Positions 3,068-38,495 of a stretch of 64,000 nt of DNA are shown here, one piece after another. Below the pieces are notes generated by a model that was not told the origin of the DNA, made no database searches, and was given only the letters and a program-made list of their open reading frames with translations. Made by a program: the position numbers and the translations under genes. Source of the DNA: Clostridia bacterium (GTDB lineage: Bacteria > Bacillota > Clostridia > Peptostreptococcales > Acidaminobacteraceae). Numbering within the stretch: position 1 is the stretch's first letter; each line of letters starts with the position of its first letter. Location of the stretch: NCBI GenBank assembly GCA_018399635.1, contig JAGYOH010000002.1, positions 1-64,000 of the forward strand. Reading direction: 5' to 3'.

Positions 3068-3084
3068 AACGATCTCTCCTATCT

Positions 3085-3095
3085 GGATAATATCC
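3085..3095. promoter_or_regulatory. Short palindrome between activator and glnA, possible enhancer site
   Basis: GGATA-A-TATCC is an 11-base palindrome about 70 bases upstream of the -24 element of the glnA promoter and 18 bases upstream of the divergent activator start. The position suits an upstream activator sequence, but the repeat is short and binding is not demonstrated. Confidence 0.3.
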
Positions 3096-3158
3096 CATTC
3101 AAATCCATTATAACCCCATTTTCACCCCGATAACACCCCCTTTTGCCCCCTTTTTTCT

Positions 3159-3173
3159 TGGCATGGCATTTGC
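3159..3173 (+). promoter_or_regulatory. Sigma-54 (-24/-12) promoter of glnA
   Basis: TGGCAT-GGCAT-TTGC matches the sigma-54 consensus TGGCAC-N5-TTGC at all but one base, with exact spacing between the GG and GC dinucleotides. It lies 37 bases upstream of the glnA start codon. Transcription would begin about 12 bases downstream of the GC, near 3185, which excludes any translation start upstream of 3211. Confidence 0.85.
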
Positions 3174-3210
3174 GTTCTTTACAGGTACCACTCAATACAA
3201 GGAGGCTCCT

Positions 3211-4638
3211 ATGTTCAAATCCTATGAAGAAGTCCGCAAGTACATGGACGGCAAGGGCATCAAGATCGTTGATTTCAAAATCATCGACACCACCGGCCGC
3301 TGGCATCATCTCAGCATTCCAGCCACCCGGTTCACCGAGGAAACCCTGGTTCAGGGCATCGGTTTCGACGGGTCGAGCTACGGCTTTCTGTCCGTGGAAA
3401 AATCCGACATGGTTTTCATCCCCGACATCACCTCGGCCTTTTTGGAACCCCTGGCCCGGATCCCCACCCTGGTCATGATCGGCAACATCTACCAGCTCAA
3501 AGACGGCCGGGTCCGGTTTGAAGACGACCCCCGCTACCTGGTGGAAAAGGCCAAGAAGCTCCTCACGGACCTGGACATCGCCGACGAAGCCAAGTTCGGA
3601 CCCGAATTCGAATTCTACGTCCTCAACGAGGTCGCCGTCAAGAATGAAGTCAACCACATGGAGGTCTTCATCGACTCCGACCAGGGGACCTGGAAAGCCG
3701 GTGAAATCGGAGGCAACCGGGGCCTGGCCCTGCGCTCCTACAACGGCTACCACATCGACCGGCCCCAGGACCTCAGCGCCGACCTGCGCAACACCGTCTC
3801 CCTCGCCCTTGAGGAAATCGGCATCCCCATCAAGTACCACCATTCGGAGAACGGCGGCCCGGGCCAGGTGGAGATCGAGGTCATCCACGAGGACGTGGTG
3901 AAGATGGCGGACTCCACCATGAAGATCAAGTACTTCCTCAAGGCCTTCGCCGAGGCCGCGGGAAAGACCGTCACCTTCATGCCCAAGCCCTTCAACGGTG
4001 AAGCCGGCAACGGCCTGCATATCCACATGCACCTCTTCAAAGACGGCCAGCCCCTCTTCTACGATGAAAAGGGCTACTCCGGCCTCTCCGACATGGCCCT
4101 GCACGCCATCGGCGGCCTCCTCAAGCACGCCGCGGCCCTCATGCCCTTCACCAACCCCTCCACCAACTCCTACAAGCGGCTGGTCCCCGGCTTCGAGGCC
4201 CCGGTGAGCATCTGCTACGCCACCTCCAACCGCAGCGCGGTGATCCGGATTCCCGGCTACGCCACCCAGCCCATGGAGAAGCGGTTTGAAATCCGGTCCC
4301 CCGACGGCACCATGAACCCCTACTTCGCCTTCTCCGCCGTCCTCATGGCCATGATCGACGGCATCGAAAACCGGATCGACCCGGTCAAGGAAGGCTTCGG
4401 CCCCTATGACATCAACCTCTACGACCTGCCGGAGGATCAAAAGGACCTGGTCAAGGGCCTGCCCACCAACCTCCTCGAGGCCGCCGACGCCCTGGAAAAG
4501 GACCACGATTTCCTCACCCGGGACGGGGTCTTCAGCCAGAACCTCATCGACAACCAGATCGCCCGTCTGAGGAAGGCGCATGAGAAGCTGGCCCGGATGC
4601 CCCACCCCGAGGAATTCAAAATGTACTACCATCTCTAG
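3211..4638 (+). CDS. glnA: Type I glutamine synthetase
   Basis: Glutamine synthetase (475 residues) joins ammonia to glutamate with ATP in the cytoplasm. The start MFKSYEEVRKY has GGAGG at 3201-3205, five bases upstream, and lies downstream of the sigma-54 promoter; an in-frame ATG at 3163 lies inside the promoter and is rejected. Family signatures are all visible: GFDGSS near the N-terminus, EFEFYVL (metal ligands), NGEAGNGLHIHMHL, NSYKRLVPG, NRSAVIRIP and RFEIRSPDGTMNPY. Near the C-terminus NLYDLP matches the tyrosine adenylylation loop of the GSI-beta type; typical Bacillus GSI-alpha enzymes lack it. Whether it is adenylylated is not known, as no adenylyltransferase is in the window. A terminator follows at 4651-4687. 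Confidence 0.95.
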   Translation: MFKSYEEVRKYMDGKGIKIVDFKIIDTTGRWHHLSIPATRFTEETLVQGIGFDGSSYGFLSVEKSDMVFIPDITSAFLEPLARIPTLVMIGNIYQLKDGRVRFEDDPRYLVEKAKKLLTDLDIADEAKFGPEFEFYVLNEVAVKNEVNHMEVFIDSDQGTWKAGEIGGNRGLALRSYNGYHIDRPQDLSADLRNTVSLALEEIGIPIKYHHSENGGPGQVEIEVIHEDVVKMADSTMKIKYFLKAFAEAAGKTVTFMPKPFNGEAGNGLHIHMHLFKDGQPLFYDEKGYSGLSDMALHAIGGLLKHAAALMPFTNPSTNSYKRLVPGFEAPVSICYATSNRSAVIRIPGYATQPMEKRFEIRSPDGTMNPYFAFSAVLMAMIDGIENRIDPVKEGFGPYDINLYDLPEDQKDLVKGLPTNLLEAADALEKDHDFLTRDGVFSQNLIDNQIARLRKAHEKLARMPHPEEFKMYYHL

Positions 4639-4650
4639 ATTTCACCCTGC

Positions 4651-4687
4651 AAGATCCGGCCCCCTGGTCCGGATCTTTTCTTTTTTG
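4651..4687 (+). terminator. Rho-independent terminator of glnA
   Basis: AAGATCCGG at 4651-4659 pairs perfectly with CCGGATCTT at 4669-4677 and is followed by a T-rich tract (TTCTTTTTT). Confidence 0.88.
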
Positions 4688-4713
4688 CCACCACCCCCCT
4701 CATCCGGTATAAT
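4685..4713 (+). promoter_or_regulatory. Sigma-70-type promoter of the GNAT-nitrilase gene
   Basis: TTGCCA (4685-4690) and TATAAT (4708-4713) are 17 bases apart. The -35 box overlaps the tail of the glnA terminator, so the downstream gene is transcribed independently of glnA. Confidence 0.75.
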
Positions 4714-4744
4714 GAGGGTATCTAGAAGATTTGGAGTGAGACGC

Positions 4745-6286
4745 ATGGCTGATATCGATCTGAAGAAATTCGAAACCAAAATCATCGTCCGCAACATGAA
4801 ACGGGAGGATTTCGAGGCGGTCATCGCCCTGGAAAAGCTCTGTTTTCCCAGGATGATCCCCTGGACCCTCTCCCAGCTGCAAAGCCACCTCAGGGTCTTC
4901 CCCGAGGGCCAGATCGTCATCGAGGTCGACGAGGTCCTGGTGGGCTCGAGCTCGAGTCTCATCGTCAATTTCGACGAATACAGCGACCAGCACACCTATG
5001 ACGAGATCTCCGACAAGGGCTATATCACCAACCACAACCCCGAGGGGGACAACCTCTACGGCCTTGAAGTCATGGTCCATCCCGACTACCGCAACATGAA
5101 GATCGGCAAACGCCTCTACGAGGCCCGCAAGGAGCTGGCCCAGCGGCTGAACCTCAAAAGCATCGTCATCGGCGGCCGGATTCCCGGCTACCACAAGCAC
5201 GCCGACACCATGACCCCCCGCCAGTACGCCGAGGCGGTGATGGCCAAGGACCTCTACGACCCCATTCTCACCTTCCAGCTCATGAGCGGCTTCATCCTCA
5301 AGCGGATCATCAAGAAGTACCTGCCCGACGACGATTCCTCCCTGGAATACGCCACCCTGATGGAGTGGAACAACATTGAATACCAGGCCGCCAGCAAACG
5401 GCATTTCAAGACCGCCTTCCCCGTGAGAATCTGCGTCATCCAGTACATGATGAAGAAAATCGACTCCTTCGAGGAGTTCGCCCACCAGTGCGAATACTAC
5501 GTGGACGTGGCCTCCAACTACAAGTCCGACTTCGTGGTCTTCCCGGAGATCTTCACCACCCAGCTCCTCTCCTACATGGACCAGGACACCCCCAGCCAGT
5601 CGGTGAGAAAACTCACCCAGTACACCGAGGCCTACATCGAAATCTTCTCCGACTTCGCGGTCCGCTACAACGTCAACATCATCGGGGGCTCCCACTTCGT
5701 CGAGGAGGAGGGGAAGATCTACAACATCGCCTACCTTTTCAGAAGGGACGGCACCATCGACAAGCAGTACAAGCTCCACATCACCCCCAACGAGGAGCAG
5801 TGGTGGGGCATCGCCACCGGGGATGAAATCAAGGTCTTCGACACCGACTGCGGCAAGATCGCCATCCTCATCTGCTACGACATCGAATTCCCCGAGCTGG
5901 CCCGGATCGTCACGGACCAGGGGGCCAACATCATCTTCACCCCCTTCTGCACCGATGAACGCCAGGGCTACCTCAGGGTCCGCTACTGCGCCCAGGCCCG
6001 GGCGGTGGAAAACCAGATCTACACCGTCATCGCCGGCACCGTGGGCAACCTCACCCATGTGGAGAACATGGACATCCAGTACGCCCAGTCCGCCATCTTC
6101 ACCCCCTCGGACTTCAGCTTCCCCAGGGACGGCATCATGGCGGAAACCACCCCCAACATCGAAATGGTCATCGTGGGAGATGTGGACCTCGAGCTCCTCA
6201 AGCGGTCCCGCCACTCCGGCACCGTGACCTTGCTCAAGAACCGGCGGGACGACCTCTATGAGCTGGTCCAGTCCGGCAAGAAATAG
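4745..6286 (+). CDS. GNAT acetyltransferase fused to carbon-nitrogen hydrolase
   Basis: This 513-residue protein has two enzymes in one chain. Residues about 15-200 are a GNAT N-acetyltransferase (VHPDYRNMKIGKRLYEARKE, the acetyl-CoA loop). Residues about 225-500 are a nitrilase-superfamily hydrolase with its Glu-Lys-Cys triad: FPEIFT, YKLHITPNE and ILICYDIEFPE. The architecture matches a known Firmicutes family that includes Bacillus YhcX, whose substrate is not settled; an amide released from an acylated amine is plausible. ATG at 4745 follows a GGAG site and a good promoter; upstream in-frame codons belong to glnA sequence and are not used. Placement after glnA suggests a nitrogen-salvage role, but this is inference. 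Confidence 0.88.
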   Translation: MADIDLKKFETKIIVRNMKREDFEAVIALEKLCFPRMIPWTLSQLQSHLRVFPEGQIVIEVDEVLVGSSSSLIVNFDEYSDQHTYDEISDKGYITNHNPEGDNLYGLEVMVHPDYRNMKIGKRLYEARKELAQRLNLKSIVIGGRIPGYHKHADTMTPRQYAEAVMAKDLYDPILTFQLMSGFILKRIIKKYLPDDDSSLEYATLMEWNNIEYQAASKRHFKTAFPVRICVIQYMMKKIDSFEEFAHQCEYYVDVASNYKSDFVVFPEIFTTQLLSYMDQDTPSQSVRKLTQYTEAYIEIFSDFAVRYNVNIIGGSHFVEEEGKIYNIAYLFRRDGTIDKQYKLHITPNEEQWWGIATGDEIKVFDTDCGKIAILICYDIEFPELARIVTDQGANIIFTPFCTDERQGYLRVRYCAQARAVENQIYTVIAGTVGNLTHVENMDIQYAQSAIFTPSDFSFPRDGIMAETTPNIEMVIVGDVDLELLKRSRHSGTVTLLKNRRDDLYELVQSGKK

Positions 6287-6303
6287 TCCTGGAGACGAAA
6301 AAA

Positions 6304-6334
6304 GGTGCGCCCCTTTCCGGGGACGCACCTTTTT
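6304..6334. terminator. Bidirectional terminator between convergent genes
   Basis: GGTGCGCCCC pairs with GGGG-A-CGCACC across a short TTTCC loop, with an A-run before and a T-run after. It can serve the nitrilase gene on the plus strand and the flavodiiron gene on the minus strand. Confidence 0.8.
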
Positions 6335-6376
6335 AGGATTCACACTTTTTTAGTCGTTTCACCGCCGGAGGAACCT

Positions 6377-7603
6377 TCAACCCTCCTGGCGGACCTTGTC
6401 CAGCAGGGCTTCGATTCCGGCCTCGATGGTGGTCAGATCCTCTTCACCGGCCCGGCCGTTGAAGACAAAACCGGGTACGAATTCCCACTTCATCCGGTAG
6501 CGGGTCATGATCTCCTCAAGCTCCCGCTCCGTGCCTGTGGCCCAGCCGTAGGAACCGAAACTGAAGGCCTTGCGACCGCACAGCTTCTTGCGGCCGATTT
6601 CCTCCAGGGCCATGGCCACGGGAGGAAACATCTGGTACTCGTAGGTGGGGGCCGCCACGATGACGCCGGAGGAAGAAAGCACCCGGGTCAGGACCTCCCC
6701 GAAGGTGGTCTGGGGCAGCTGCAGGCTGTGGTAGCGGACCCCCCGGGCCTCCAGGAGGGCCTCCACCCGCCGGACGGCCTCTTCCGTGCGGCCGTACATG
6801 GACCCCCACAGAAGGGTGACGTCCCCCCCGGTGGCCTCGAGGGCGTAGTCCACGTAGCGCTTGTAGGTCTCGATGATTTCACCGGGATTCTGCCGCCACA
6901 CGATGCCGTGGCCCGGGGCGATGACGGCGGGTCCCAGGTTCTCCGCCACGGTGATGGCCTTTTTCACCTGGGAGGAGAAGGTGGCCATGACATTGGCGAA
7001 ATAGCGCAGACCCTCCTCTTCGAAGACCAGCCGGTCCTGAGCCGTCATCTCGTCGTCGAAGTGGACCTGCTCCAGTTTGCCGAAGGCGCCGAACATGTCA
7101 CAGGAAAAGAGGGTCCCGGACTCCTTTTCCAGGGTCATCATGGTCTCGGGCCAGTGGACATTGGGGGCCTCGTGGAATTCCAGGACCTTCCCACCGCCCA
7201 GGTCCAGACGGTCCCCGGTCTTCACGATCCGAACACCCTCCTCCTGGCCGTAGTAGGCCTTCATCAGGGCGGCGGCCTTTTTGGTCAGCACCACCTCGAA
7301 ATCCTCCGAGATCCCTTTGAAGTCCCGGATCCAGCCGGAGTGGTCCGGCTCCATGTGATTGACCACCAGATAATCGATGGTGGCGGGGTCGATCTCAAGC
7401 GCTTCAAGCAGCTCGAAGAGCTTTTCGGGAACCCCGTCCCAGTCGCAGAAGCCGTCGATGATGGCGGTCTTGTCCCCCTTGACGATATAGGAATTCACCG
7501 CCGCATCCCGGGGCATGTCCCACATGCCTTCAAAGAGCAGACCCTCCACATTGGCGGTCAGTTTGTAGATGCCTTCACTCAACTTGATCGGTTTCACTTT
7601 CAT
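6377..7603 (-). CDS. fprA: Flavodiiron protein (FprA-type A flavoprotein)
   Basis: This 408-residue cytoplasmic flavodiiron protein reduces oxygen to water, or nitric oxide to nitrous oxide, protecting anaerobes. The N-terminal metallo-beta-lactamase-like domain (1-250) keeps all the iron ligand motifs: HMEPDH, PNVHWPE, FSCDMFGAF and APGHGIVW. The C-terminal flavodoxin domain (about 255-400) starts with LLWGSMYGRTEEAV, an FMN phosphate loop. There is no fused rubredoxin domain. ATG at 7603 follows a GGAGG four bases upstream. The electron donor is not encoded beside it; a small flavodoxin at 56241-56678 and a ferredoxin at 53188-53787 are remote candidates. Confidence 0.93.
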   Translation of the reverse strand: MKVKPIKLSEGIYKLTANVEGLLFEGMWDMPRDAAVNSYIVKGDKTAIIDGFCDWDGVPEKLFELLEALEIDPATIDYLVVNHMEPDHSGWIRDFKGISEDFEVVLTKKAAALMKAYYGQEEGVRIVKTGDRLDLGGGKVLEFHEAPNVHWPETMMTLEKESGTLFSCDMFGAFGKLEQVHFDDEMTAQDRLVFEEEGLRYFANVMATFSSQVKKAITVAENLGPAVIAPGHGIVWRQNPGEIIETYKRYVDYALEATGGDVTLLWGSMYGRTEEAVRRVEALLEARGVRYHSLQLPQTTFGEVLTRVLSSSGVIVAAPTYEYQMFPPVAMALEEIGRKKLCGRKAFSFGSYGWATGTERELEEIMTRYRMKWEFVPGFVFNGRAGEEDLTTIEAGIEALLDKVRQEG

Positions 7604-7678
7604 TTACCTCCTTGTATGCTGTGTGATCGAGACATCGCAGGATGTCTTCATTTTAACTCATGACAAAGGATGCAGACC

Positions 7679-9363
7679 TCAGGATTTCTTCGAATTCTTC
7701 ATCCGGTACATGGCCTCATCGCTTTCTTCAATCGCTTTCCTCATGGCGTCGCTCCCCTCCCCGACCCCGGCGGTGCCGATGCTGAGGCGGAGGACGAGGC
7801 TTTCCTTCCCGGGCCCCACCGGGACCGCGATCTCCCTTTGAATCCTTTCCACCAGGGCCTCCAGCTGCTCTCCCTCACTGAGGGAGACCGCCACGATGAA
7901 TTCATCCCCGCCGTAACGGAAAACCAGGTCGGATTCCCTGACGGAGGCCTTCAGCAGTCCGGCCACCATCTTTAAGACCCGGTCTCCGACCCCATGGCCG
8001 TAAAGGTCGTTGACTGACTTGAACCGGTCGATGTCCACGAAGAGCAGGTACCAGCTTCGACCCGGCTTCGCCTCCAGACCCCCGGTCTCCAGGACCTCTT
8101 CGAGGTGGAGGCGGTTGTAGACGCCGGTGAGGTTGTCGACGACGATCCGGCCTTCCAACTCCTCCTTGTGGCTGATCAGGGCCGAAAAACGGACCAGGAC
8201 CAGTTGGAAGAAAATCCCCACCATGAGAAAAATGCCGAAGGCCGTCACATAAGGCAGATTCCCGACGAAGAGCTCTAAAAAACCGCCGGTGAGGGCGAAG
8301 GCATAGGCGAAGGCGGCAGGGACGGCTCCCGGACGCCGGGCCAGAATGCCCCGGCTGATGACGTAGATGAAGTAGATGCCGTAGGCCACCACCAGGTAGC
8401 GGTACACCTCGAGATAGCTGCTGTAGATGCGGTCATCCCACACAAGGCAAAGCAGGATGGCGAAGGCGGCCAGGAAATGGTAGCTTCGTCTCACCCGGGG
8501 ATTGCCGGGAAGGAAATTGAGATGCCAGATGATCAGACCCGCGAAGGGCAGGAGCAGGTAGCCGAAAAGGTATTCCAGGCGGTTGAAAACCATGAAGGGC
8601 ACCATGGGCAGGAGGTGGACGATGAGGCGGTGGCCGGTGACCAGGGACCGGACGGCGACCAGCAGGGAAAAGATTCCCAGATGCAGCATGACGGGATCTC
8701 CCTTTTCCCGGGCAAACAAGCCCAGAGAAAGCAGTCCCAGAATCAGCATCACACCGAAAATGAAGAATTCCGTCAGCTTCTGCTGGGTGGCCTGGTACTT
8801 GACCGTGTCAAAGGTCCCCACCAGGGGGCCAGCCAGAAGCCTCCCCTGAAGTAGTCGAAGTTGGCGATTTCCATGACGAGGTCAGCCTCCCCCGCTTCAG
8901 AAGCCTTGAAGGCGTACCACTCCGCCGCCAGTCTGGGCTCATAGGAGGCCTTGTCCCTCCCCACCCGGCCGCTTTCAATCAGGACCTCTCCCCCGACAGT
9001 GAGGCGGTAGGCCATGGCCTCATCCTTGATGAAAATACCGTAGGTCATGGCCGGATCCAGGCCCTTGAGGGTCATCCCGTAGGTGGCGAAGCCCTCGGCC
9101 TCCTCCCCCGTCCAGAGATGGGGGAGGGTCACGGCGGCCGGCGCCCCGGTCCCGTCAAGGATGTCCTCATGGAGACTCGAGGGCCAGTATCGCCACTCAC
9201 CCTCGAGGGCCACCAGGTCGCCGGGGCGGAGCCGGTCCAGGGAAAGCCCGCCCTCAAGAGCCTCGAGGACCAGGGGAGCCGGTCCTCCCAGGAGAAGACC
9301 CCACACCACCAGCAGAAAAAGCAGGGCGGTGGCAATGAAATAGAATTTCAGGTCCTTTGACAT
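7679..9363 (-). pseudogene. 7TM sensor-GGDEF diguanylate cyclase interrupted by a frameshift
   Basis: Two consecutive reading frames make one protein. The first (9363 to about 8825) has an N-terminal membrane anchor (FIATALLFLLVVWGLLL) and an extracytoplasmic beta-rich sensory region of the 7TMR-DISM type, ending FDYFRGGFWLAP. The second (about 8821 to 7679) continues with seven hydrophobic segments and a GGDEF domain whose active-site motif RYGGDEF is intact, so it would make cyclic di-GMP. The frames join if one base is added to the G run at 8824-8828 (five present, six needed). As written, the 196-residue product is truncated. This could be sequencing error, true mutation or slipped-strand switching. 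ATG at 9363 is preceded by a long structured leader and a good promoter. Confidence 0.75.
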
Positions 9364-9400
9364 GGCTTACCCGCCTTCCTCCCCGCCTGAAACGGCTTTT

Positions 9401-9446
9401 CCGGAGTCAAAAAAGCCCCTCCGGCCTCACCGCAGGGACTCTCCCT
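9401..9446 (-). other. Structured 5' leader with two hairpins
   Basis: The ~105-base untranslated leader of the GGDEF gene contains AGGGA-CTC-TCCCT (9434-9446) and CCGGAG/CTCCGG (9401-9406 with 9419-9424). I compared it by eye with the cyclic di-GMP-I riboswitch core and see no match. It could be an RNA regulator of unknown class or simply stable secondary structure. Confidence 0.3.
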
Positions 9447-9475
9447 CGACAGGTTTTTGACGCATCATCACTGCC

Positions 9476-9504
9476 ATTATAAGGGTTTTACGTGAAGTTG
9501 TAAA
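9476..9504 (-). promoter_or_regulatory. Sigma-70-type promoter of the GGDEF gene
   Basis: On the minus strand TTTACA (9499-9504) and TATAAT (9476-9481) are separated by 17 bases. Transcription would start near 9469, giving a leader of about 105 bases. Confidence 0.75.
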
Positions 9505-9523
9505 CATTACAAGGCCGCTTTGA

Positions 9524-10711
9524 TCACGCCTCTTCGAGCAAGTCGAGGATGGCCGTCACATAGACCTTGACCCCCACCTTGAAGAGTTCCTCGTCCAGAT
9601 CGAAGGCGGGATGGTGGAGTTCATGGATGATTCCCTTGGCCTCATTGCGGGTGCCGATGTAGAGATAGGTCCCCGGCCTCTCCATGGCGAAATAGGAAAA
9701 ATCCTCGGCGCTCATGGAGGGGTACTTGACGGGAACCACTCCTCCGGGTCCCAGGGCCTCCCTGGCGGAAGCCATGACCTTGAGGGTGAGTTCCTCGTCA
9801 TTGATGGTGGGGGGGAACCGCTTGTGGTAGGTGAATTCAAAGTCCGCCCCGTAGGTGTCGCAGATCCCCCGGATCACCGCCGCCATCTTGTCCTTGATGA
9901 CGTCCCGGATCTCGTTCTGGTAGGTCCTGACGGTGCCCTTGAGCCGACAGACCGCCGGTGTGACATTGTAGGCGTCCCCGGCGTTGAAGGCGGTGACGCC
10001 GATCACCACGGGTTCAAAGGGATTGAGGACCCTGGCCACCCCCGCCGGCAGTCCCGTCACCACCTGGGCCCCCACCATGACGGGGTCCACGGTGAGATAG
10101 GGTTTGCCCACATGACCGCCCTTTCCCCGGATGACGATGTCGAAAATATCCGGAGAGGCCATGACGGCTCCGGTCTTGATGCCCACGGTGCCCACGGGAA
10201 GCTCCGGCCAGACATGGCCGCCCAGAACATAATCCACCCGGGGGTTTTCAAGCACCCCTTCCCGGACCATGGGCTCGGCACCCCCCTCGGATTCCTCCGC
10301 CGGCTGGAATAGAAACTTGACCTGGCCCTTGAAATCCTCCTTCAGATCATTGAGGACCATCAGGGTCCCCAGGGCCATGGTCATATGGGCGTCGTGGCCG
10401 CAGGCGTGCATGACGCCGGGATTCAGTGACTTGTAGGGCTTGTCTCCCTCTTCTGAAATAGGCAGGGCGTCCATGTCCGTCCTGAGGGCGACGGTCTTTC
10501 CCGGTCCCCCGCCCTTCAAGGTGGCGGCCAGGGCGGTCCCCGTCAGGCCCTCCTGATGGACAAGGTCATAGTCCTTTAGAAAATCCTCAATGAAGGCCCG
10601 GGTCCCGACCTCTTCAAAGCTCAGTTCGGGCATCCGGTGAAGCTGCCGGCGCATGGCCACCCATCCGTCGAAGTATTTTTCGATGAGTTCATCGACTCGC
10701 TGGTCCATCAT
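9524..10711 (-). CDS. M20 family amidohydrolase (N-acyl-amino-acid/hippurate type)
   Basis: This 395-residue cytoplasmic metalloenzyme would cleave an acyl or peptide bond next to an amino acid. Metal-binding motifs of peptidase family M20D are present: TDMDALPI, MHACGHDAHM, FQPAEESEGGA and, near the C-terminus, SAEDFSYFA. A dimerisation domain (about 180-295) interrupts the catalytic domain. The start is one of two adjacent ATG codons (10711 or 10708) after AAGGAGAGG. It is divergent from the peptide transporter operon at 10981-16419, so it may act on imported peptides or conjugates. The substrate cannot be read from the sequence. Confidence 0.88.
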   Translation of the reverse strand: MMDQRVDELIEKYFDGWVAMRRQLHRMPELSFEEVGTRAFIEDFLKDYDLVHQEGLTGTALAATLKGGGPGKTVALRTDMDALPISEEGDKPYKSLNPGVMHACGHDAHMTMALGTLMVLNDLKEDFKGQVKFLFQPAEESEGGAEPMVREGVLENPRVDYVLGGHVWPELPVGTVGIKTGAVMASPDIFDIVIRGKGGHVGKPYLTVDPVMVGAQVVTGLPAGVARVLNPFEPVVIGVTAFNAGDAYNVTPAVCRLKGTVRTYQNEIRDVIKDKMAAVIRGICDTYGADFEFTYHKRFPPTINDEELTLKVMASAREALGPGGVVPVKYPSMSAEDFSYFAMERPGTYLYIGTRNEAKGIIHELHHPAFDLDEELFKVGVKVYVTAILDLLEEA

Positions 10712-10805
10712 CTATTTCATCCTCTCCTTCAGTGAATTGCTGACCTATTGAAAATGCAAGTCTGATGCCAAGGATTTTTGCCGGAATCGACCCCCGGACC
10801 GGTCC

Positions 10806-10851
10806 TTTACAGGACTTACAGTTGGTTTTATATTTTCGTATGTCCTGTAAA
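10806..10851. promoter_or_regulatory. Long inverted repeat upstream of the dpp sigma-54 promoter
   Basis: TTTACAGGAC (10806-10815) is the exact reverse complement of GTCCTGTAAA (10842-10851), with 26 bases between. The centre is about 80 bases upstream of the -24 element, the usual place for enhancer-binding protein sites. An extra half-site TTACAG lies at 10816-10821. Confidence 0.6.
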
Positions 10852-10907
10852 ACGGGGAAAAGGGTGAAAAAACCCCGCTTTTCCCCCCACCCCTCCCTGC
10901 CGCCTCT

Positions 10908-10922
10908 TGGCATCACTCTTGC
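10908..10922 (+). promoter_or_regulatory. Sigma-54 (-24/-12) promoter of the peptide transporter operon
   Basis: TGGCAT-CACTC-TTGC fits the sigma-54 consensus with exact spacing, 58 bases upstream of the first gene start. The same TGGCAT variant is used at the glnA promoter (3159-3173). Confidence 0.85.
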
Positions 10923-10980
10923 ATAATAAGTTGACGTACGGTTAACATGAGAGACACTATAAGGATTGGAGAGGTGAAAA

Positions 10981-12591
10981 ATGAAAAAGTATCTAAGTTT
11001 CCTGCTCATTGCGATTCTGGCCCTGTCCCTGGTCGCCTGTGCCAGCCAACCCGCGGAGGAGCCGGCACCGGCTGAAGAACCCGCCGCTGAAGAACCCGCC
11101 GCCGAAGAGCCCGCCGCCGAGGAACCTGCCGGAGACAGCAAGTACGGCGGGGAAATCGTCATCACGGACTTCCCCTTCACCGATGTGAAGTCCCTGGATC
11201 CCCATGTGGTCAGTGCCGCCGGAGAAATGCGACACATTGAGAACATGTACAACGGACTCCTGCGATACAAGGAGGGGACCTACGGTGAAGTCGAGGGAGA
11301 CCTGGCCAAGAGCTATTCGGTTTCCGACGACAACCTCACCTACACCTTCGAGCTTCATGAAGGGGTGACCTTCCACAACGGCGATCCTTTGACCGCCGCC
11401 GACGTGAAGTATTCCATTGAAAGAATCATCGAGCAGGAGGTCAGAGCCTCCTACTTCGCGGGTCTCGTCAGCATTGAAACCCCCGACGACACCACCGTGG
11501 TCATCACCCTGGAAAAACCGGTGGCCCCCTTCACCACCTTCCTGGCCAACCCCATGACCGCCATCGTCAACAAAAACGTGGTGGAAGCCAATGACGGCTC
11601 CCTGGCCACCGTCGATGCCGGCAGCGGCCCCTTCATGCTGGATTCCTGGCAGAAGGACCAGCAGATGACCCTGGTGAAATTCGACGATTACTTTGAAGAA
11701 GGCCTGCCCTATCTCGACAAGGTGGTCCTCAAGCCCATCCCCGAGGAATCCGCCAGAAACACCGCCCTTCGCACCGGTGAAGTGGATCTGATCCTCCAGG
11801 TGGACGCCAAGGATGTCATGACCCTTGAAAAAGAAGACGGCATCGTCATCGATTCCGTTCCAGGCAGCTACTGGGAGTACATCGGCATGAACATGCGCGA
11901 GGGTCCCCTGGCCGTCAAGGAAGTGCGTCAGGCCATCGCCCACGGCATCGACAAGGAAGCCATGAACCAGGCCATCAAATTCGGTGAAGCCACGGTCCTC
12001 ACCGGCGCCATGATTCCTCCGGGACACTGGGCCTACGCCGATCTGGACATGTACCCCGCCCAGAATCTCGAGAAAGCTGAAGAACTCCTGGCCGCAGGCG
12101 GCTATCCCGACGGCTTCGCGGTCGAGATGATCGTCCTCTCCAACAGCGACATCGCCATCGCCGCCGCCCAGATGACCAAACAGCAGCTGGCCCCCCTGGG
12201 CATCGACGTCACCGTCAGCGCCCTTGAGTCCGGCGTCTACTTTGAGAAACTGGGTTCAGGAGACTTCGAACTCACGGAAATCGGCTGGGTGGGCTTCATC
12301 GATCCCGACGAATTCCTCTACAACATCTTCTACACCGACGGCATGTGGAACCAGCAGGGTTACTCGAATCCGGAATTCGACGCCCTCCTCGACCAGGGCC
12401 GCACCACCCTTGACCAGGCCGCCCGAAAAGAAATCTACTACGAAGCCCAGGACATCCTGGCTGACGACGCTCCCATGGCCTTCCTCTACGTGAACAACCA
12501 GATTTCCGCCTACAGAGACCATGTGAAGGGCTTTGACGTCAACGCCACCGTCACCTTGAAGTCACTCAAAAACACCTGGCTGGAAAAATAA
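10981..12591 (+). CDS. dppA: Peptide ABC transporter substrate-binding lipoprotein
   Basis: This is the extracellular solute-binding protein (536 residues, SBP_bac_5 family) of a dipeptide/oligopeptide importer. A lipoprotein signal ends in LVAC with the lipidated cysteine at residue 20. A low-complexity linker of AEEP units spans residues 25-50. The mature domain starts GGEIVITDF and contains the family signature region around YNGLLRYKEG and DPLTAADVKYSIERI. ATG at 10981 follows GGAGAGG. It is the first gene of an operon with two permeases and two ATPases, behind a sigma-54 promoter. The dpp name reflects family similarity; specificity for dipeptides, oligopeptides or nickel is not proven. 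Confidence 0.92.
   Translation: MKKYLSFLLIAILALSLVACASQPAEEPAPAEEPAAEEPAAEEPAAEEPAGDSKYGGEIVITDFPFTDVKSLDPHVVSAAGEMRHIENMYNGLLRYKEGTYGEVEGDLAKSYSVSDDNLTYTFELHEGVTFHNGDPLTAADVKYSIERIIEQEVRASYFAGLVSIETPDDTTVVITLEKPVAPFTTFLANPMTAIVNKNVVEANDGSLATVDAGSGPFMLDSWQKDQQMTLVKFDDYFEEGLPYLDKVVLKPIPEESARNTALRTGEVDLILQVDAKDVMTLEKEDGIVIDSVPGSYWEYIGMNMREGPLAVKEVRQAIAHGIDKEAMNQAIKFGEATVLTGAMIPPGHWAYADLDMYPAQNLEKAEELLAAGGYPDGFAVEMIVLSNSDIAIAAAQMTKQQLAPLGIDVTVSALESGVYFEKLGSGDFELTEIGWVGFIDPDEFLYNIFYTDGMWNQQGYSNPEFDALLDQGRTTLDQAARKEIYYEAQDILADDAPMAFLYVNNQISAYRDHVKGFDVNATVTLKSLKNTWLEK
11053..11130 (+). repeat. Tandem AAEEP-coding repeats in the lipoprotein linker
   Basis: Residues 25-50 are an AEEP-rich repeat encoded by nearly identical 15-base units. 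It forms a flexible acidic tether between the lipid anchor and the binding domain. Copy number could vary by slippage. Confidence 0.8.
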
Positions 12592-12665: not shown

Positions 12666-13607
12666 GTGCTAAAGTATATCCTCAAAAGAATTCTAGTGGC
12701 ACTGCCTGTCATTTTCGGCATATCCATCATTGCCTTTTTTTTGATTCGACTGGTTCCCGGAGACACCATCACGGCTCTCCTGGGCGCCAATTACAATGAA
12801 GAGCAGGCCCTGATCCTGAGGGCCAAGTACGGCCTGGACCAGCCCCTGCCGGTCCAGTACCTGATCTGGCTCAAAAACGTCCTGGCCGGCGATTTCGGAA
12901 TCTCCTTCTTCACCAAGGAGCCCGTGGTCAAGATCATCATGGAGCGCCTGCCCGTGACCCTGGAGCTCATGCTCATCAGCCTGCTCTATTCCGTTTTCGT
13001 GGCCATTCCCCTGGGCACCATCGCCGCGGTCAAGCGGAATTCCGCCACGGATTACGGCGCCAGTGTCTTCGGTCTCCTGGGCGTGTCCATCCCCAACTTC
13101 TGGCTGGGCATCCTGCTCATCGCCTTTTTTTCACTCCATCTCAGGTGGCTCCCCTCGGGAGGCTTCGTCAGCTTCGGGGTGGATCCCCTTGAAAATCTCC
13201 GCCACATGATCATGCCATCCATCGCCCTCGGAACCGCCGTGGGGGCGGTCATCATGCGGATGACCCGCTCCTCCATGCTCGAAGTCCTCGGACAGGAATA
13301 CATCAAAATGGCGGACGCCAAGGGCGTGACCAATAGACGTCTGATCTTTCACCATGCCCTGAAAAACAGCTTCGTGCCCATCGTCACGGTCCTGGGCATC
13401 CAGATGGGCTACCTTCTGGGAGGCAGCGTGGTCATTGAAAAGATCTTCGCCCTGCCGGGCATCGGACAACTGTCCCTGCAGGCCATCACCAACCGGGACT
13501 ACGCCCTGCTGCAGGGCTGCATCCTCCTCATCGCCACCGGCTTCGTGGTGATCAACCTGGTGGTGGACATCATCTATGGCTTTTTGGATCCAAAAATACG
13601 CTACTGA
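12666..13607 (+). CDS. dppB: Peptide ABC transporter permease, DppB type
   Basis: This 313-residue inner-membrane permease has six hydrophobic segments. The first is at residues 9-30 (ILVALPVIFGISIIAFFLI). The cytoplasmic EAA loop that contacts the ATPases is visible around GQEYIKMADAKGV and HALKNSFVPI. The C-terminal segment ends YGFLDPKIRY, typical of DppB/OppB. The start is GTG at 12666 after GGAGG at 12649-12653. It would pair with DppC to form the channel. Family assignment is secure; substrate is not. Confidence 0.92.
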   Translation: MLKYILKRILVALPVIFGISIIAFFLIRLVPGDTITALLGANYNEEQALILRAKYGLDQPLPVQYLIWLKNVLAGDFGISFFTKEPVVKIIMERLPVTLELMLISLLYSVFVAIPLGTIAAVKRNSATDYGASVFGLLGVSIPNFWLGILLIAFFSLHLRWLPSGGFVSFGVDPLENLRHMIMPSIALGTAVGAVIMRMTRSSMLEVLGQEYIKMADAKGVTNRRLIFHHALKNSFVPIVTVLGIQMGYLLGGSVVIEKIFALPGIGQLSLQAITNRDYALLQGCILLIATGFVVINLVVDIIYGFLDPKIRY

Positions 13608-13622: not shown

Positions 13623-14462
13623 ATGGGCGAAACATGGTACCGCTTTAGAAAAAACAAACTCGCCTTCACCGGATTTGCCATTTTGATGGTCTTCGTGTTC
13701 CTGGCGATTTTCGCACCCCTCATCGCACCCTACGATCCCTTCACCATGCACGTGGAGGATCGTCTGCAGACCCCCGGCTCAAACTACCTTTTCGGGACGG
13801 ACCAGTTCGGCCGTGACATCCTCAGCCGGATCATCCACGGCGCCAGAATCTCCTTCCAGGTGGGCATCATTTCCGTGGGCATCTCCCTGGTGGCCGGCCT
13901 GGCCCTGGGCATCGCCGCCGGCTACTACGGCAAGTGGGTGGACATGGTCATCTCCCGTCTCATCGATATCATGTTTTCCTTCCCCGATATCTTTCTGGCC
14001 CTGGTCATCATGGCCATCCTGGGGACCAGTCTCACCAATGTCATGATCGCCATCGGCATCGTCTACACCCCGATTTTCGCCAGGATCGCCCGGGGGGCCA
14101 CCCTCACCGTCAAGGACAACGCCTACATCGAGGCGGCCCGGTCCATCGGGGTGGGGGATTTCATGACCATCCTGCGGCATATCCTGCCCAATATCATGGC
14201 CCCCCTCATCGTCCAGACCACCCTTTCCTTCGGCTTCGCCATCCGGTCCGAAGCGGCCCTGAGTTTTCTGGGCCTCGGCGTCCAGCCCGACGTCCCCTCC
14301 TGGGGCATCATGCTCAACGAAGGCAAGGAATGGCTGGAACTCGGCTGGTGGATCGCCTTTTTCCCGGGTCTGGCCGCCACCCTGGCCATCCTCAGTTTCA
14401 ATGTCCTGGGGGACGGCCTCAGGGACGCCCTGGACCCCAAACTCAGAAATGAATCCGAATAA
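13623..14462 (+). CDS. dppC: Peptide ABC transporter permease, DppC type
   Basis: This 279-residue permease begins with a short cytoplasmic arm (WYRFRKNKLAFTGFAIL) and carries the N-terminal OppC/DppC signature APYDP and FGTDQFGRDILSR. Six membrane segments follow, and the EAA loop is at YIEAARSIGVGDF with HILPNIMAP. The C-terminus LGDGLRDALDPKLR is characteristic of the family. ATG at 13623 follows AAGGAGG, 15 bases after dppB. It forms the heterodimeric channel with the preceding permease. Confidence 0.92.
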   Translation: MGETWYRFRKNKLAFTGFAILMVFVFLAIFAPLIAPYDPFTMHVEDRLQTPGSNYLFGTDQFGRDILSRIIHGARISFQVGIISVGISLVAGLALGIAAGYYGKWVDMVISRLIDIMFSFPDIFLALVIMAILGTSLTNVMIAIGIVYTPIFARIARGATLTVKDNAYIEAARSIGVGDFMTILRHILPNIMAPLIVQTTLSFGFAIRSEAALSFLGLGVQPDVPSWGIMLNEGKEWLELGWWIAFFPGLAATLAILSFNVLGDGLRDALDPKLRNESE

Positions 14463-14477
14463 AGGAGGCGATTCCTA

Positions 14478-15458
14478 ATGGCTGAAGTCATTTTAGACGT
14501 CCAAAACCTCAAAACCCATTTTAGAACCCATCAGGGGATTGTCAAAGCCGTGGACGGGGTCAGTTTCAAGGTCCACCGCGGCGAAACCTACGCCCTGGTG
14601 GGAGAATCCGGCAGCGGCAAAAGCGTCACCTGCATGACCGTCATGGGCCTCATCGGCAAGAAGAAGGACGAGGTGGTCACCGGAGACATCTACTTCAAGG
14701 GGACCAACCTCACCAGGCTCTCCCTGGAGGACCGCCGCCGGCTGCGGGGCAAGCACATGGCCATCATCTTCCAGGACCCCATGACCTCCCTCAATCCCGT
14801 CTACACCGTGGGCACCCAGATCGCTGAGATGCCCATCATCCACGAAGGCAGTGACAAGAAATCCGCCTGGCAGGTGGCGGTTGAAATGCTCCGCAAGGTG
14901 GGAATCCCCTCCCCCGGGGACCGGGCCAGGGACTACCCCCACCAGTTCAGCGGCGGCATGCGGCAAAGAGGGGTCATCGGCATGTCCCTGTCCCTCGATC
15001 CCGACCTCCTCATCGCCGACGAACCCACCACCGCCCTGGATGTCACCATCCAGGCCCAGATCCTGGACCTCATGAAGGATCTCAAGGACCAGACCAACGC
15101 CGCCATCGTCATGATCACCCACGACCTCGGGGTGGTGGCCCAGATCGCCGACCATGTCGGGGTCATGTACGCCGGCACCATCGTGGAAACCGCCGACGTC
15201 AGGACCCTCTACAAGGACCCCCGCCACCCCTATACCCGGGGACTGCTCAACTCCATTCCCAAGCCCGGGTCCAAGGACCGGCTGGAGATCATCAAGGGTC
15301 AGCCGCCGGACCTGCACAATGTGCCCAAGGGCTGCAGCTTCTCCCCCCGCTGCCCCTACGCCCATGACCGCTGCCAGGAGGCGCCTCCGGTGGTGGAAGT
15401 GGCGCCGGGACACCAGGTGGCCTGCTGGCTCATGAAGGAGGATCAAGACCATGCCTGA
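14478..15458 (+). CDS. dppD: Peptide ABC transporter ATPase, DppD type
   Basis: This 326-residue ATP-binding subunit has Walker A GESGSGKS, Q-loop FQDPMTSLNPV, the ABC signature FSGGMRQR, Walker B LLIADEPTTALD and H-loop ITHDLG. The C-terminal oligopeptide-transporter extension contains four cysteines (CSFSPRCPYAHDRC and a later C), which in DppD-type proteins may bind an iron-sulfur cluster. ATG at 14478 follows AAAGGAGG. It overlaps the next gene by eight bases, so the two ATPases are translationally coupled. Confidence 0.93.
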   Translation: MAEVILDVQNLKTHFRTHQGIVKAVDGVSFKVHRGETYALVGESGSGKSVTCMTVMGLIGKKKDEVVTGDIYFKGTNLTRLSLEDRRRLRGKHMAIIFQDPMTSLNPVYTVGTQIAEMPIIHEGSDKKSAWQVAVEMLRKVGIPSPGDRARDYPHQFSGGMRQRGVIGMSLSLDPDLLIADEPTTALDVTIQAQILDLMKDLKDQTNAAIVMITHDLGVVAQIADHVGVMYAGTIVETADVRTLYKDPRHPYTRGLLNSIPKPGSKDRLEIIKGQPPDLHNVPKGCSFSPRCPYAHDRCQEAPPVVEVAPGHQVACWLMKEDQDHA

Positions 15459-16419
15459 TAAACCACTCATCGAGGTCCGGGGCCTCAAAAAACACTTTCC
15501 CGTCAAGGCCCCCTTCCTGTCCGGGGAAAAACTCCTGGTCAAGGCGGTGGACGGTCTCGACTTCAACATCTATCCCGGGGAGACCCTGGGTCTGGTGGGG
15601 GAATCCGGCTGTGGCAAGTCCACCACCGGCAGACTCCTCCTCAGACTCCTCGAGCCCACCCAGGGGCAGGTCTTCTTCGAAGGCCAGGACCTCACCGCCC
15701 TCAAGCAGCAGACCCTCAAGGCCATGCGGCGGAACTTCCAGATGGTCTTCCAGGATCCCTACGCCTGTCTCAACCCCCGGCTCAAGGTCAAGGACATCCT
15801 GAACGAACCCCTGGCCACCCACCACATCGACCCCAAAAGCCGAAAAAAGATGATCCTCACCCTCCTGGAGCAGGTGGGAATCCCCAAAAGCTACATGGAC
15901 CGCTATCCCCATGAATTCAGCGGCGGCCAGCGACAGCGCATCGGCATCGCCAGGGCCCTGAGTCTCAACCCCAAGTTCATCGTCGCCGACGAACCCGTGG
16001 CGGCCCTCGATGTCTCCATCCAGGCCCAGATTCTCAATCTCATGAAGGACCTGCAGCAGGAACTCAACCTCACCTACCTCTTCATCGCCCACGATCTCAG
16101 CGTGGTGCAGTATATTTCCGACCGCATCGGGGTCATGTATCTGGGACAGCTCGTGGAACTCACCCGGACCGAAAAACTCTTTGACAACCCCTCTCATCCT
16201 TACACCCGGGTCCTCCTCAGCGCTGTCCCTGTACCGGATCCCGACCACGTCTATGAAGCCTCCACCATCGTCAAGGGAGAAATCCCCAGCCCCATCAACC
16301 CTCCCTCGGGATGCGCCTTCCATCCCCGCTGTCCCCACGCCATGGCCGTCTGTTCCAGGGAAAAACCCGTGATCAAGGACATCGGCGACGGCCACAAGGT
16401 GGCCTGTCATCTCTACTGA
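15451..16419 (+). CDS. dppF: Peptide ABC transporter ATPase, DppF type
   Basis: This 322-residue second ATPase completes the heterodimeric motor. It has Walker [10 protein letters not shown]-loop [11 protein letters not shown], signature FSGGQRQR, Walker [13 protein letters not shown] and the H-loop IAHDLS. The C-terminal region has the cysteine set [17 protein letters not shown] at 15451 is read from within the end of dppD after GGAGG. It is the last gene of the operon; a clear terminator follows at 16453-16481. Confidence 0.93.
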
Positions 16420-16452: not shown

Positions 16453-16481
16453 AAAATCGCAGTCGACCCGGCTGCGATTTT
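16453..16481 (+). terminator. Terminator of the peptide transporter operon
   Basis: AAAATCGCAG (16453-16462) pairs perfectly with CTGCGATTTT (16472-16481) over a nine-base loop, followed by GTTCTT. Confidence 0.85.
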
Positions 16482-16682: not shown

Positions 16683-18677
16683 TCAGGACTGGAGACTGAG
16701 GACCTTGAGGCCCTCCGGGGTGATTTTCGTCCCCTGCTTGCCGATGCCTACGGCAATGTAACCCGCTGCCTTGAGTTCCTCAAGAAGGCCCCTGACCTCC
16801 CGCTCCGTCAGAAATATCCCCCGGTCCTCCAGGGCCTTCATCAGACTCAGGCGGCCCACCTTTTCCCGGGACTCCAGCTTTTCCTTGAGAATCCTCAGGA
16901 TGCCGTGTTTTTCCTCGCCGACGTGGTAGGTCTCCTCCTTCTGGCTGATGGCCCTTCGAAAGGTGTAGGGCAGCCCTTCGACGGCGATTTTTTCTTCGGA
17001 CATGAAGGCCAGGTACTCGGCGATGTTTCTCAGCTCCCGGACGTTCCCCGGCCAGGAGTAGGCCGTGAAAATTTCAAAGAGGCCCTCCTCGATGGCCTTG
17101 ACGGATTTGAACTCCTTGAGGAAATGGTGGAAGAGCACCGGGATGTCCTCCTTGCGGTCCCGAAGGGGAGGGACCGTCAGGGGAAAGACGTTGAGGCGGT
17201 AGTAGAGGTCCCACCGGAACCTGCCTTCCCTGGCCAGGGCATTGAGGTCCCGGTTGGTGGCGGCGATGATCCTGACGTCCACCCGGCGGATCCTGGTGGA
17301 GCCGATGCGGATGATTTCCGACTCCTGCAGGACCCTGAGAAGCCGCGACTGCATCCCCAGACTCAGCTCCGCGATCTCATCGAAGAAGAGGGTCCCGTGA
17401 TGGGCCTGCTCGAAGAGACCGATCTTCCCCTCCTTCTTGGCCCCGGTGAAGGCCCCGGTTTCATAGCCGAAGAGCTCCGACTCGACGAGATTCTCCGGCA
17501 GGGCGGCGCAGTTGATGGCCAGGTAGGGAAATTTCGCCCGGTCCGAGGCATTGTGGATGGCCGCGGCAAAGAGTTCCTTGCCGGTGCCGCTCTCCCCGGT
17601 GATGAGGATGGTGGACTGGGCCGTGGCCATCTTCCGGGTCAGCTTCTTCACCCTCCGGATAAGGGGGCTCTCCCCGATGATCTCGTCGATGGTGTACTTG
17701 GCCACATGGCCGAAAAGGGAAATGTCCTTGCGGACCATGTCCTCCAGCCGCTTGATTTCCGTGACATTTCTCAGAATGATCATGTCCCCCACCTTCTGGT
17801 TGAAGACGTAGATGGGCTTGGTGCTGACGATGAGCTTCTCGTTGTGGTACTTCACCAGCTGGTCCGAAACGTAGCGGGTGTCCCCCAGGGACCGGCTGAT
17901 GTGGGGAATGATCTCGTCGATGGACCTGCCCATGAGGGCGGCATTGGAAAGAATCTTCTTGGACGCCTCGTTCACCATGATGACATTGCCGTCGTTGTCC
18001 GTCTCGATGACCCCCTCGTTGATGAGGTTGACGATGGTGTTCTTTTCCTGCTGGACATAGACGTTGTCGTCGATGAGGCTGGAAACCCCCCGGTCCACGG
18101 TGACGATGGTCTTCTGGTACTTCTGGATGACGGCCTCCCGTTCACTGGCCTCAAGATCCAGTTCATTGAGCAGGTCCAGGATGGTGTCCACGTCGTAGAC
18201 CATGTGGCCGATATTGTAGATGGTCTCCACGGTATCCGGAATCAGATGGACCTCGTTGGTGGTGATGGCCACCTTGATTTCATCGATGGGCTCCACCCCG
18301 GGATAAAAGGGGTAGAGCTCGAAGTCAAAGCCCAGGGAATAGATGGAGGAAATGGTTTCAAAGGTCACATCGATGCCGTTGTTCACCAGGTAGATCCTTT
18401 CCTTGACATCGATCATTTTGAGCAGGTCGAAGGACTTGTTGGTGAAGGTTCTCCGGATGGGGATGATTTTCGTGGTGGGCTTCAAGTGCTTCCTCACCAG
18501 GTTGATCATGAGGGGGGTGGACATCAGGAGAATGTCCACATCGATGCCCTTGCGGTCGATCTTGTTGAAGTTGAAGGAGGTGATGGTGAACCGGTCCCCC
18601 AGCACCGCATCGAGTACCTCGTGGTAAAACTGTTTGGTATTGTCATTCAGGGCGCCGACGCCGATGATCTTGGCCAT
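16683..18677 (-). CDS. Sigma-54-dependent transcriptional activator, likely regulator of the peptide transporter
   Basis: This 664-residue paralogue of the activator at 1106-3067 has the same layout: an unassigned N-terminal sensory region (1-200, opening MAKIIGVGALNDN), a PAS domain (about 215-325, GVIETDNDGNVIMVNEASK), an AAA+ domain (about 340-570) with GESGTGKE, GAFTGA, GTLFFDEIAE and WPGNVREL, and a C-terminal region that looks like a winged helix (EREVRGLLEELKAAGYIAV) and not a Fis domain. Start ATG at 18677 follows GAGGAGTGAGG. It is convergent with and adjacent to the sigma-54-promoted transporter operon, so it probably activates it via the inverted repeat at 10806-10851; this is inferred from neighbourhood only. 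It has its own sigma-70-type promoter. Confidence 0.88.
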   Translation of the reverse strand: MAKIIGVGALNDNTKQFYHEVLDAVLGDRFTITSFNFNKIDRKGIDVDILLMSTPLMINLVRKHLKPTTKIIPIRRTFTNKSFDLLKMIDVKERIYLVNNGIDVTFETISSIYSLGFDFELYPFYPGVEPIDEIKVAITTNEVHLIPDTVETIYNIGHMVYDVDTILDLLNELDLEASEREAVIQKYQKTIVTVDRGVSSLIDDNVYVQQEKNTIVNLINEGVIETDNDGNVIMVNEASKKILSNAALMGRSIDEIIPHISRSLGDTRYVSDQLVKYHNEKLIVSTKPIYVFNQKVGDMIILRNVTEIKRLEDMVRKDISLFGHVAKYTIDEIIGESPLIRRVKKLTRKMATAQSTILITGESGTGKELFAAAIHNASDRAKFPYLAINCAALPENLVESELFGYETGAFTGAKKEGKIGLFEQAHHGTLFFDEIAELSLGMQSRLLRVLQESEIIRIGSTRIRRVDVRIIAATNRDLNALAREGRFRWDLYYRLNVFPLTVPPLRDRKEDIPVLFHHFLKEFKSVKAIEEGLFEIFTAYSWPGNVRELRNIAEYLAFMSEEKIAVEGLPYTFRRAISQKEETYHVGEEKHGILRILKEKLESREKVGRLSLMKALEDRGIFLTEREVRGLLEELKAAGYIAVGIGKQGTKITPEGLKVLSLQS

Positions 18678-18698: not shown

Positions 18699-18727
18699 AT
18701 TATACCTTTAGGGGCCATACGGGACAA
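18699..18727 (-). promoter_or_regulatory. Sigma-70-type promoter of the second activator gene
   Basis: On the minus strand TTGTCC (18722-18727) and TATAAT (18699-18704) are 17 bases apart, 22 bases upstream of the start codon. Confidence 0.75.
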
Positions 18728-18749
18728 GTTTGAAAGTCCTGAAAATATT

Positions 18750-28779: not shown

Positions 28780-28792
28780 GGAGGAAGAACCC

Positions 28793-33798: not shown

Positions 33799-33799
33799 C

Positions 33800-35011: not shown

Positions 35012-35751
35012 ATTTCGAAGAAATCGTCATGCCAGCCACCGTGGCGGAGGCCTACGAGGCCCTGACCACGGCGGAGAATCCCGTCATTCTGGGGGGAGGA
35101 GGCTTTCTCAAACTCCAGAACCGCCGGGTCCATACCGCCATCGACCTGTCCCGATGCGGCCTCGAGGAGGTCCATCTCACACCGGACTGCATCGAGGTGG
35201 GGGCCATGGTGACCCTGAGAACCCTGGAAACCCACCCGGAAATGCCCCGGGCCCTGAGGACCGCCATGAAAAACATCGTCGGCGTCGCCCTGAGGAACCT
35301 GGTCACCGTGGGGGGAAGCGTCAGCGGCCGCTACGGCTTTTCCGACGTCATCACCCCCCTGCTGGCCCTGGACGCCCATCTCGACTTCCATAAAAAGGGC
35401 CGGATGAGTCTGGAGGCCTTCCTGGAGAGCCAGGACCGGACCCCGGACATCCTGGTGAAGATCCGGATCCCCCGGGCCGCCCATTCCGCCTTTTACAATG
35501 TCCAGCTCACCTACACCGATTTTTCCATGGTGAACCTGGCCATCGCCAGGAATCACCACCTGAGAATCGCCGTCGGGGCCCGACCCGGGGTCGCCAGACT
35601 CATCAAGGACCCCGACCTGCGCCTGACCCCCGGTGAAATCCTGGAGAAAATCAAGTTTGCCAAGGATGACAAGGCCAGTGGTGACTACCGGCGCACCCTC
35701 GCCGAAACACTCCTCGCCGACGCCCTCAAGGAGGTGTCCCAGTGGAAATAA
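35008..35751 (+). CDS. Molybdenum hydroxylase FAD subunit (second set)
   Basis: This 247-residue FAD subunit is shorter than the first set's (275 residues). Its FAD loops are ILGGGGFLKL and RNLVTVGGSVSGRYGFSD, the latter unusual in having SGRYGF where NIINAA is more common. It overlaps the threonine synthase-like gene (ATGA) and the 2Fe-2S gene by ten bases. It belongs to the second hydroxylase, perhaps of the YgfM type. Confidence 0.88.
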   Translation: MNFEEIVMPATVAEAYEALTTAENPVILGGGGFLKLQNRRVHTAIDLSRCGLEEVHLTPDCIEVGAMVTLRTLETHPEMPRALRTAMKNIVGVALRNLVTVGGSVSGRYGFSDVITPLLALDAHLDFHKKGRMSLEAFLESQDRTPDILVKIRIPRAAHSAFYNVQLTYTDFSMVNLAIARNHHLRIAVGARPGVARLIKDPDLRLTPGEILEKIKFAKDDKASGDYRRTLAETLLADALKEVSQWK

Positions 35752-38484: not shown

Positions 38485-38495
38485 GGGAGGCGCCT

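Follow-up and report, generated by a model that had tools for sequence, protein, structure and literature searches.

Among the known systems closest to the locus described here is the ddpXABCDF operon of E. coli, which is under the control of NtrC and sigma-54 and is turned on under nitrogen limitation via RpoN and NtrC (PMC8743547, PMC4066584). As in the present locus, a dpp-type importer and a dipeptidase or peptidase are together placed under sigma-54 and a sigma-54 activator (EBP). In E. coli, however, there is a single operon with the peptidase gene first, governed by the global NtrC, whereas here we find two divergent promoters and a local winged-helix EBP. The SigL-dependent operons of C. 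difficile CD0166-CD0165, CD2699-CD2697 and CD2862-CD2860 go with the EBPs CD0167, CD2700 and CD2863 respectively (PMC7438776, Table 4). They are similar in that a local EBP gene adjoins the sigma-54 promoter of peptidase and membrane transport genes, but divergent pairs are not stated and the transporters are not reported as dppABCDF. EBPs of the Clostridiales mostly regulate adjacent operons through a UAS 100-250 bp upstream, and the regulons described include those of XcyR (malY-pepT) and YpdR (pepABC) (Nie et al. 2019, PMC6615313). The common features are a UAS before a -24/-12 promoter, an EBP that is usually next to its target, and some targets in peptide degradation; by contrast a Fis-type HTH is present in 335 of the 490 EBPs of that study, and a dpp/opp target is absent from its table (PMC6615313). 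Two units under one EBP are known from the divergent sigma-54 pairs zraP/zraSR and hyc/hyp (PMC3844500, citing Lutz et al. 1990). These share with the present locus the two divergent sigma-54-dependent units per EBP, but differ in their genes, activators (ZraR and FhlA) and binding sites.

The locus lies in the window, i.e. the whole 64 kb stretch of DNA that was analysed. It is compared below with that of a sister species of the same genus, the Mahoney Lake MAG ML8_F1 (contig LQBE01000027.1), which is the nearest genome compared. The elements are:

9524-10711, minus strand: M20 amidohydrolase/carboxypeptidase-like peptidase, divergent from dpp (Pfam Peptidase_M20, 1.2e-48)
10755-10771, minus strand: predicted sigma-54 (-24/-12) promoter of the M20 gene, TTGGCATCAGACTTGCA, perfect consensus, 15/17 identical in the sister species
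10806-10819, plus strand: left arm of the inverted repeat, candidate activator site, TTTACAGGACTTAC; 10806-10821 is 16/16 identical in the sister species
10838-10851, minus strand: right arm, candidate activator site, GTATGTCCTGTAAA; the sister species has GTAAGTCCTGTAAA, giving a perfect repeat
10907-10923, plus strand: predicted sigma-54 (-24/-12) promoter of dppABCDF, TTGGCATCACTCTTGCA, perfect consensus, 16/17 identical in the sister species
10981-12591, plus strand: dppA-like family-5 substrate-binding lipoprotein (Pfam SBP_bac_5, 1.8e-98)
12666-13607, plus strand: dppB-like permease (Pfam BPD_transp_1, 2e-41)
13623-14462, plus strand: dppC-like permease (Pfam BPD_transp_1, OppC_N)
14478-15458, plus strand: dppD-like ATPase (Pfam ABC_tran, oligo_HPY)
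15451-16419, plus strand: dppF-like ATPase (Pfam ABC_tran, oligo_HPY)
16453-16481, no strand assigned: terminator-like inverted repeat on which dppF and the EBP gene converge, AAAATCGCAG/CTGCGATTTT, loop 9
16683-18677, minus strand: sigma-54 activator (EBP), with N-terminal sensor domain (residues 1-205), PAS domain, AAA+ domain with GAFTGA, and C-terminal winged helix (588-664)
18699-18727, minus strand: predicted sigma-A-type promoter in front of the EBP gene, TTGTCC-17-TATAAT, kept in ML8_F1
18731-18745, minus strand: half-site-like TTTTCAGGACTTTCA, directly upstream of the EBP promoter, with 2 mismatches to TTTACAGGACTTACA

The plus-strand genes have the composition of a dpp/opp-type importer, with an SBP_bac_5 protein, two permeases and two oligo_HPY ATPases in one operon. 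The substrate-binding protein scores below all NCBIfam equivalog cut-offs, and the system is a putative peptide importer. After its lipoprotein signal, DppA carries a repetitive Ala/Glu/Pro linker EEPAAEEPAAEEP (11050-11140); a similar EEPAENEEPAENEE stretch occurs in the orthologue from the MAG UBA8670. The divergent 9524-10711 product scores above the cut-off for the NCBIfam amidohydrolase TIGR01891 and below that for a CpsA-like protein.

The 269 bp between the M20 gene and dppA have, by sequence, the character of a two-way sigma-54 control region. Using the consensus TTGGCAY-N5-TTGCW (i.e. GG-N10-GC elements), the matches at 10755-10771 (minus) and 10907-10923 (plus) are the sole perfect ones in the 64 kb window, where shuffles lead us to expect 0.02, and no perfect match arose in 20000 shuffles of the intergenic region. 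By these chance statistics both promoters are strong. The dppA-side promoter was already recognized in the earlier note, and is indeed perfect and kept in the sister species, in keeping with sigma-54 control of dpp; its divergent partner had been missed. A repeat search returned 10754-10772 and 10906-10924 as a 19-nt inverted pair, which is explained by 10755-10771 being a second perfect -24/-12 promoter on the opposite strand. The M20-side promoter of the sister species is likewise a perfect match to the consensus (TTGGCATCACTCTTGCA). Transcripts are predicted to start at about 10744 (M20, minus) and 10934 (dpp, plus). RpoN is encoded once in the genome (a single PF04552 match, 2.3e-59, G000:C35).

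Between the two promoters lies an inverted repeat of total length 46 bp. It consists of TTTACAGGAC (10806-10815) and GTCCTGTAAA (10842-10851) with the 26-base spacing described previously, and if one mismatch is allowed each arm reaches 14 nt (TTTACAGGACTTAC/GTATGTCCTGTAAA, 93%). The dppA-side promoter begins 55 bp past the end of the repeat. The GG elements are 59.5 bp (M20 side) and 80.5 bp (dpp side) from its centre. The repeat by itself, leaving conservation aside, is weak evidence of function. When the intergenic region was shuffled 2000 times, a perfect 10-nt repeat with a loop of at most 60 appeared in 17 of the shuffles (0.85%), and the window as a whole contains 12 such repeats compared with 3-11 in shuffles. 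A second repeat, GGGGAAAAG/CTTTTCCCC at 10854-10886, was set aside, having no conserved counterpart in the sister species.

Comparison with ML8_F1 settles, at the level of the aligned DNA, that the 46 bp repeat is real. The M20-dpp region is shared by the two species, and the repeat of the sister species is TTTACAGGACTTACA-N16-TGTAAGTCCTGTAAA, perfect over 15/15 nt in each arm and again 46 bp long, with its centre 59.5 and 79.5 bp from the GG elements. The right arm (10837-10851) is identical at 13/15 positions, and the stretches between the elements retain identity at only 17/34 and 21/55 (38-50%). Since the elements have been kept while the DNA between them has diverged, the conserved objects are the two divergent sigma-54 promoters and one symmetric site between them. 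The dyad site is thus placed as a UAS should be, 50-250 bp upstream of a -24/-12 promoter and kept at the orthologous locus of one close relative. The suggestion that the repeat is a regulatory site mediating sigma-54 control is supported, except that it was assigned to one promoter and appears to serve two. An exact search with both arms through 395 genomes of the order found 2, both of this genus.

The genome search for further copies that the earlier note had proposed found a partner arm beside none of the other exact TTTACAGGAC copies inspected. Most of these resemble coding sequence, and one (L007) lies in an apparent T-box leader. Within 1 kb upstream of the listed sigma-54 promoters there is no further match to the half-site with up to 2 mismatches, and at 3 mismatches no enrichment over the reversed pattern was found. 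Because no further half-site was found near those promoters, we read the regulon as a single target region, to which autoregulation may be added.

The product of 16683-18677 is a sigma-54 activator, as had been proposed. Its AAA+ domain matches Pfam Sigma54_activat (1.9e-68), with GAFTGA at 408 and the Walker motif GESGTGKE. For residues 1-205 neither a Pfam family nor a PDB sequence gave a match; a confident model of this region (pLDDT 90) shows only weak fold matches to two-lobed alpha/beta proteins. Its assignment as PrpR_N was considered, and was not supported by the Pfam, PDB sequence or fold tests. A PAS domain follows. The C-terminal 80 residues are predicted to form a winged helix (helix-helix-helix-strand-strand-helix), and homologues of this region match HTH_12 (10/14, best 7e-8) and CggR_N (9/14). 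A Pfam match to the Fis-type HTH_8 was not found, so the protein falls outside the Fis-type classes Ia and Ib (PMC3162934). It is also below the cut-offs of the named NCBIfam EBP equivalogs (PrpR, NtrC, NorR, PrdR and others), the best being PrdR at 372.9 bits against a cut-off of 795.

This gene had been described as the end of the dpp operon, which does not fit the arrangement: it is convergent to dppF, with the terminator-like repeat 16453-16481 between them, it has its own sigma-A-type promoter, and in the sister species some 12 kb separate it from dppF. The intervening sequence of about 12 kb in ML8_F1 (G001:C27, about 28000-40200; L029, L060) is absent here and includes an ABC-transporter ATPase-like sequence. 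We note that the GenBank title of the sister MAG (L112, LQBE01000027.1) reads 'delta proteobacterium'. The authors of ML8_F1 placed it in the Firmicutes near Alkaliphilus (PMC4846661), and this fits the relatives found here, so that the title looks wrong.

A half-site-like sequence precedes the EBP gene in both species, with TTTTCTGGACTTACA at the aligned place in ML8_F1. It provides a link between the EBP and the repeat that is suggestive only, the half-site being short and its TTTT overlapping the tail of a terminator-like repeat. The link is not a by-product of adjacency to the dpp operon, given the distance of about 12 kb in the sister species. Since the half-site adjoins the sigma-A promoter of the EBP gene, the protein may also control itself.

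We think it likely that the repeat is the binding site of the EBP encoded by 16683-18677 and that this protein activates the two promoters. Sigma-54 RNA polymerase would wait, unable to start, at the two divergent -24/-12 promoters, with the C-terminal winged helix of the EBP holding the 46-bp repeat. The N-terminal and PAS domains would sense a signal, probably a peptide taken up by the cell, an N-acyl amino acid or a compound derived from it, upon which the AAA+ domain would assemble and open both promoters. The two spacings differ by 20-21 bp, approximately two helical turns of B-DNA, so that one complex could face both promoters. In this way the importer would be produced together with the enzyme that cleaves what it brings in.

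It is unlikely that another regulator occupies the repeat, whether the second EBP at 1106-3067, an unlinked genomic EBP or an unrelated factor. There are at least 12 EBP-like matches in the genome, and EBP 1106-3067 is also syntenic in the sister species. Yet no further regulator gene was recognized between 3 kb and 21 kb, the half-site-like sequence precedes the 16683-18677 gene in both species, and the corresponding cluster of UBA8670 has the orthologue of the 16683-18677 product next to it. EBP 1106-3067, moreover, faces a sigma-54 promoter of its own at 3158-3174, with its own conserved upstream block that differs from the 10806-10851 repeat. That second winged-helix EBP, on the minus strand, is divergent from the 3158-3174 promoter (plus strand) of the cluster:

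3211-4638, downstream of the sigma-54 promoter 3158-3174 (plus strand): type I glutamine synthetase
4580-6286, same cluster: GNAT/carbon-nitrogen hydrolase fusion

The block around ATCCCATTCAAATCCATTATAACCCCATTT, upstream in the 1106-6286 cluster and conserved in the sister species, may be the operator of EBP 1106-3067.

A sigma-A-like TTTACA-17-TATATT (10806-10834; 10/12 matches) overlaps the left half of the repeat, so that a basal promoter there is possible, and the repeat could in principle act chiefly as the operator of a repressor that blocks a sigma-A promoter of dpp, leaving the sigma-54 promoter a minor role. We consider this very improbable. The corresponding -10 of the sister species is TTTATT, in which the key A is lost, whereas the symmetric right arm, outside that promoter, and both sigma-54 promoters are kept. 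It is highly improbable that the repeat arose by chance or forms a hairpin in RNA, as an attenuator or terminator would, in spite of the frequency of such repeats noted above, as it lies upstream of both predicted starts and hence in neither RNA, has a loop of 18-26 nt and no T-run immediately following, and has kept its arms and length in the sister species while its surroundings have changed.

Binding by the 16683-18677 product gains support from the gene order in UBA8670 (L114), which is M20, divergent sigma-54 promoters (2242-2258 and 2443-2459), glutamine synthetase, dppABCDF and an EBP 62-66% identical to the one here. This, with the half-site at its gene, bears out the earlier choice of 16683-18677 as the likely activator of dpp. 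In the UBA8670 locus (2242-9849) the sigma-54 promoter is followed first by glutamine synthetase and only then by dppA, an order hinting at a functional link of peptide import with glutamine synthesis. Two further genomes (G054 and G043) each have an EBP of 48% identity whose gene diverges from an M20 gene with a sigma-54 promoter. In Clostridium sp. BSD9I1 (L113) a 53% identical EBP lies beside an M20 gene and is grouped with an amidohydrolase gene and an AbgT-type transporter gene, the EBP and M20 genes lying downstream of a sigma-54 promoter and the transporter gene. These arrangements indicate that the circuit is conserved beyond the genus and its operator sequence is not; no convincing equivalent of the repeat was found in UBA8670 or BSD9I1. 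With the exact repeat found only in this genus among the 395 genomes, the link between operator and activator rests on two species.

An HMM built from the C-terminal winged-helix domain detected it in 86 of 128 EBP genes from related genomes, a set chosen by similarity to EBP 16683-18677 and so not a census. A published survey of EBP architecture describes DNA-binding domains that are C-terminal Fis (HTH_8), N-terminal or missing, with the winged helix not among them (PMC3162934). Beside winged-helix EBPs, 16 of the 75 sigma-54 promoters (14 loci) reach dpp-like or M20 genes within 4.5 kb on the same strand, compared with 0/34 beside other EBPs (Fisher p 0.0014, or 0.003 on 14 loci, the two sets having been found by differing routes). 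Genes of dpp type are present in 11 of the 16 rows, at nine loci; two of these, L042 and L048, are one system in both species of the genus, leaving about eight independent cases. One of these cases is in genome G025, where the sigma-54 promoter beside the EBP leads to a PuuD-like hydrolase gene and then dpp. The earlier opinion that sigma-54 control of a dpp-type importer is not standard is not supported, in view of these 16 promoters and of E. coli ddpXABCDF, a known NtrC/sigma-54 dipeptide importer with a dipeptidase (PMC8743547). The L042 cluster (G000:C34, 785-11493) is in the same genome as the present locus and comprises an EBP, a sigma-54 promoter, S9-like and M20-like peptidases and a second dppABCDF; it is also found in the sister species.

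A class-specific operator made of long inverted repeats at winged-helix EBP promoters (e.g. AATGGGTTAA...TTAACCCATT) was considered and dropped, because perfect repeats with 11-nt arms and a length of 34-52 bp are no more frequent in one group of EBP than in the other: 22/75 winged-helix and 10/34 other promoters, with 0 in shuffles, or 14/75 and 5/34 with a loop of 9 or more. Some long repeats at EBP-linked promoters may be terminators. Long-spaced repeats such as AAACGTTTCA...TGAAACGTTT are also seen upstream of sigma-54 promoters of EBPs that lack the winged helix (L192 3958, L202 2071, L189 3940).

The local circuit is well supported and fairly ordinary, being of a type that recurs in relatives. 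More tentatively, the winged-helix EBPs could form a little-described class with a two-lobed sensor and a winged helix instead of Fis, used mostly for scavenging peptides and N-acyl amino acids; at the present locus one symmetric, helically phased enhancer would fire two promoters simultaneously. As part of the same reading, and with similar reserve, the class might be common in this clostridial order. What is gained is a candidate operator and a named activator for an importer-peptidase module of a clostridial lineage that has not been cultured. Across the order, dpp-type importers are repeatedly found under sigma-54 control, and the winged-helix activators merit a family of their own, a class that a specialist may find under-described.
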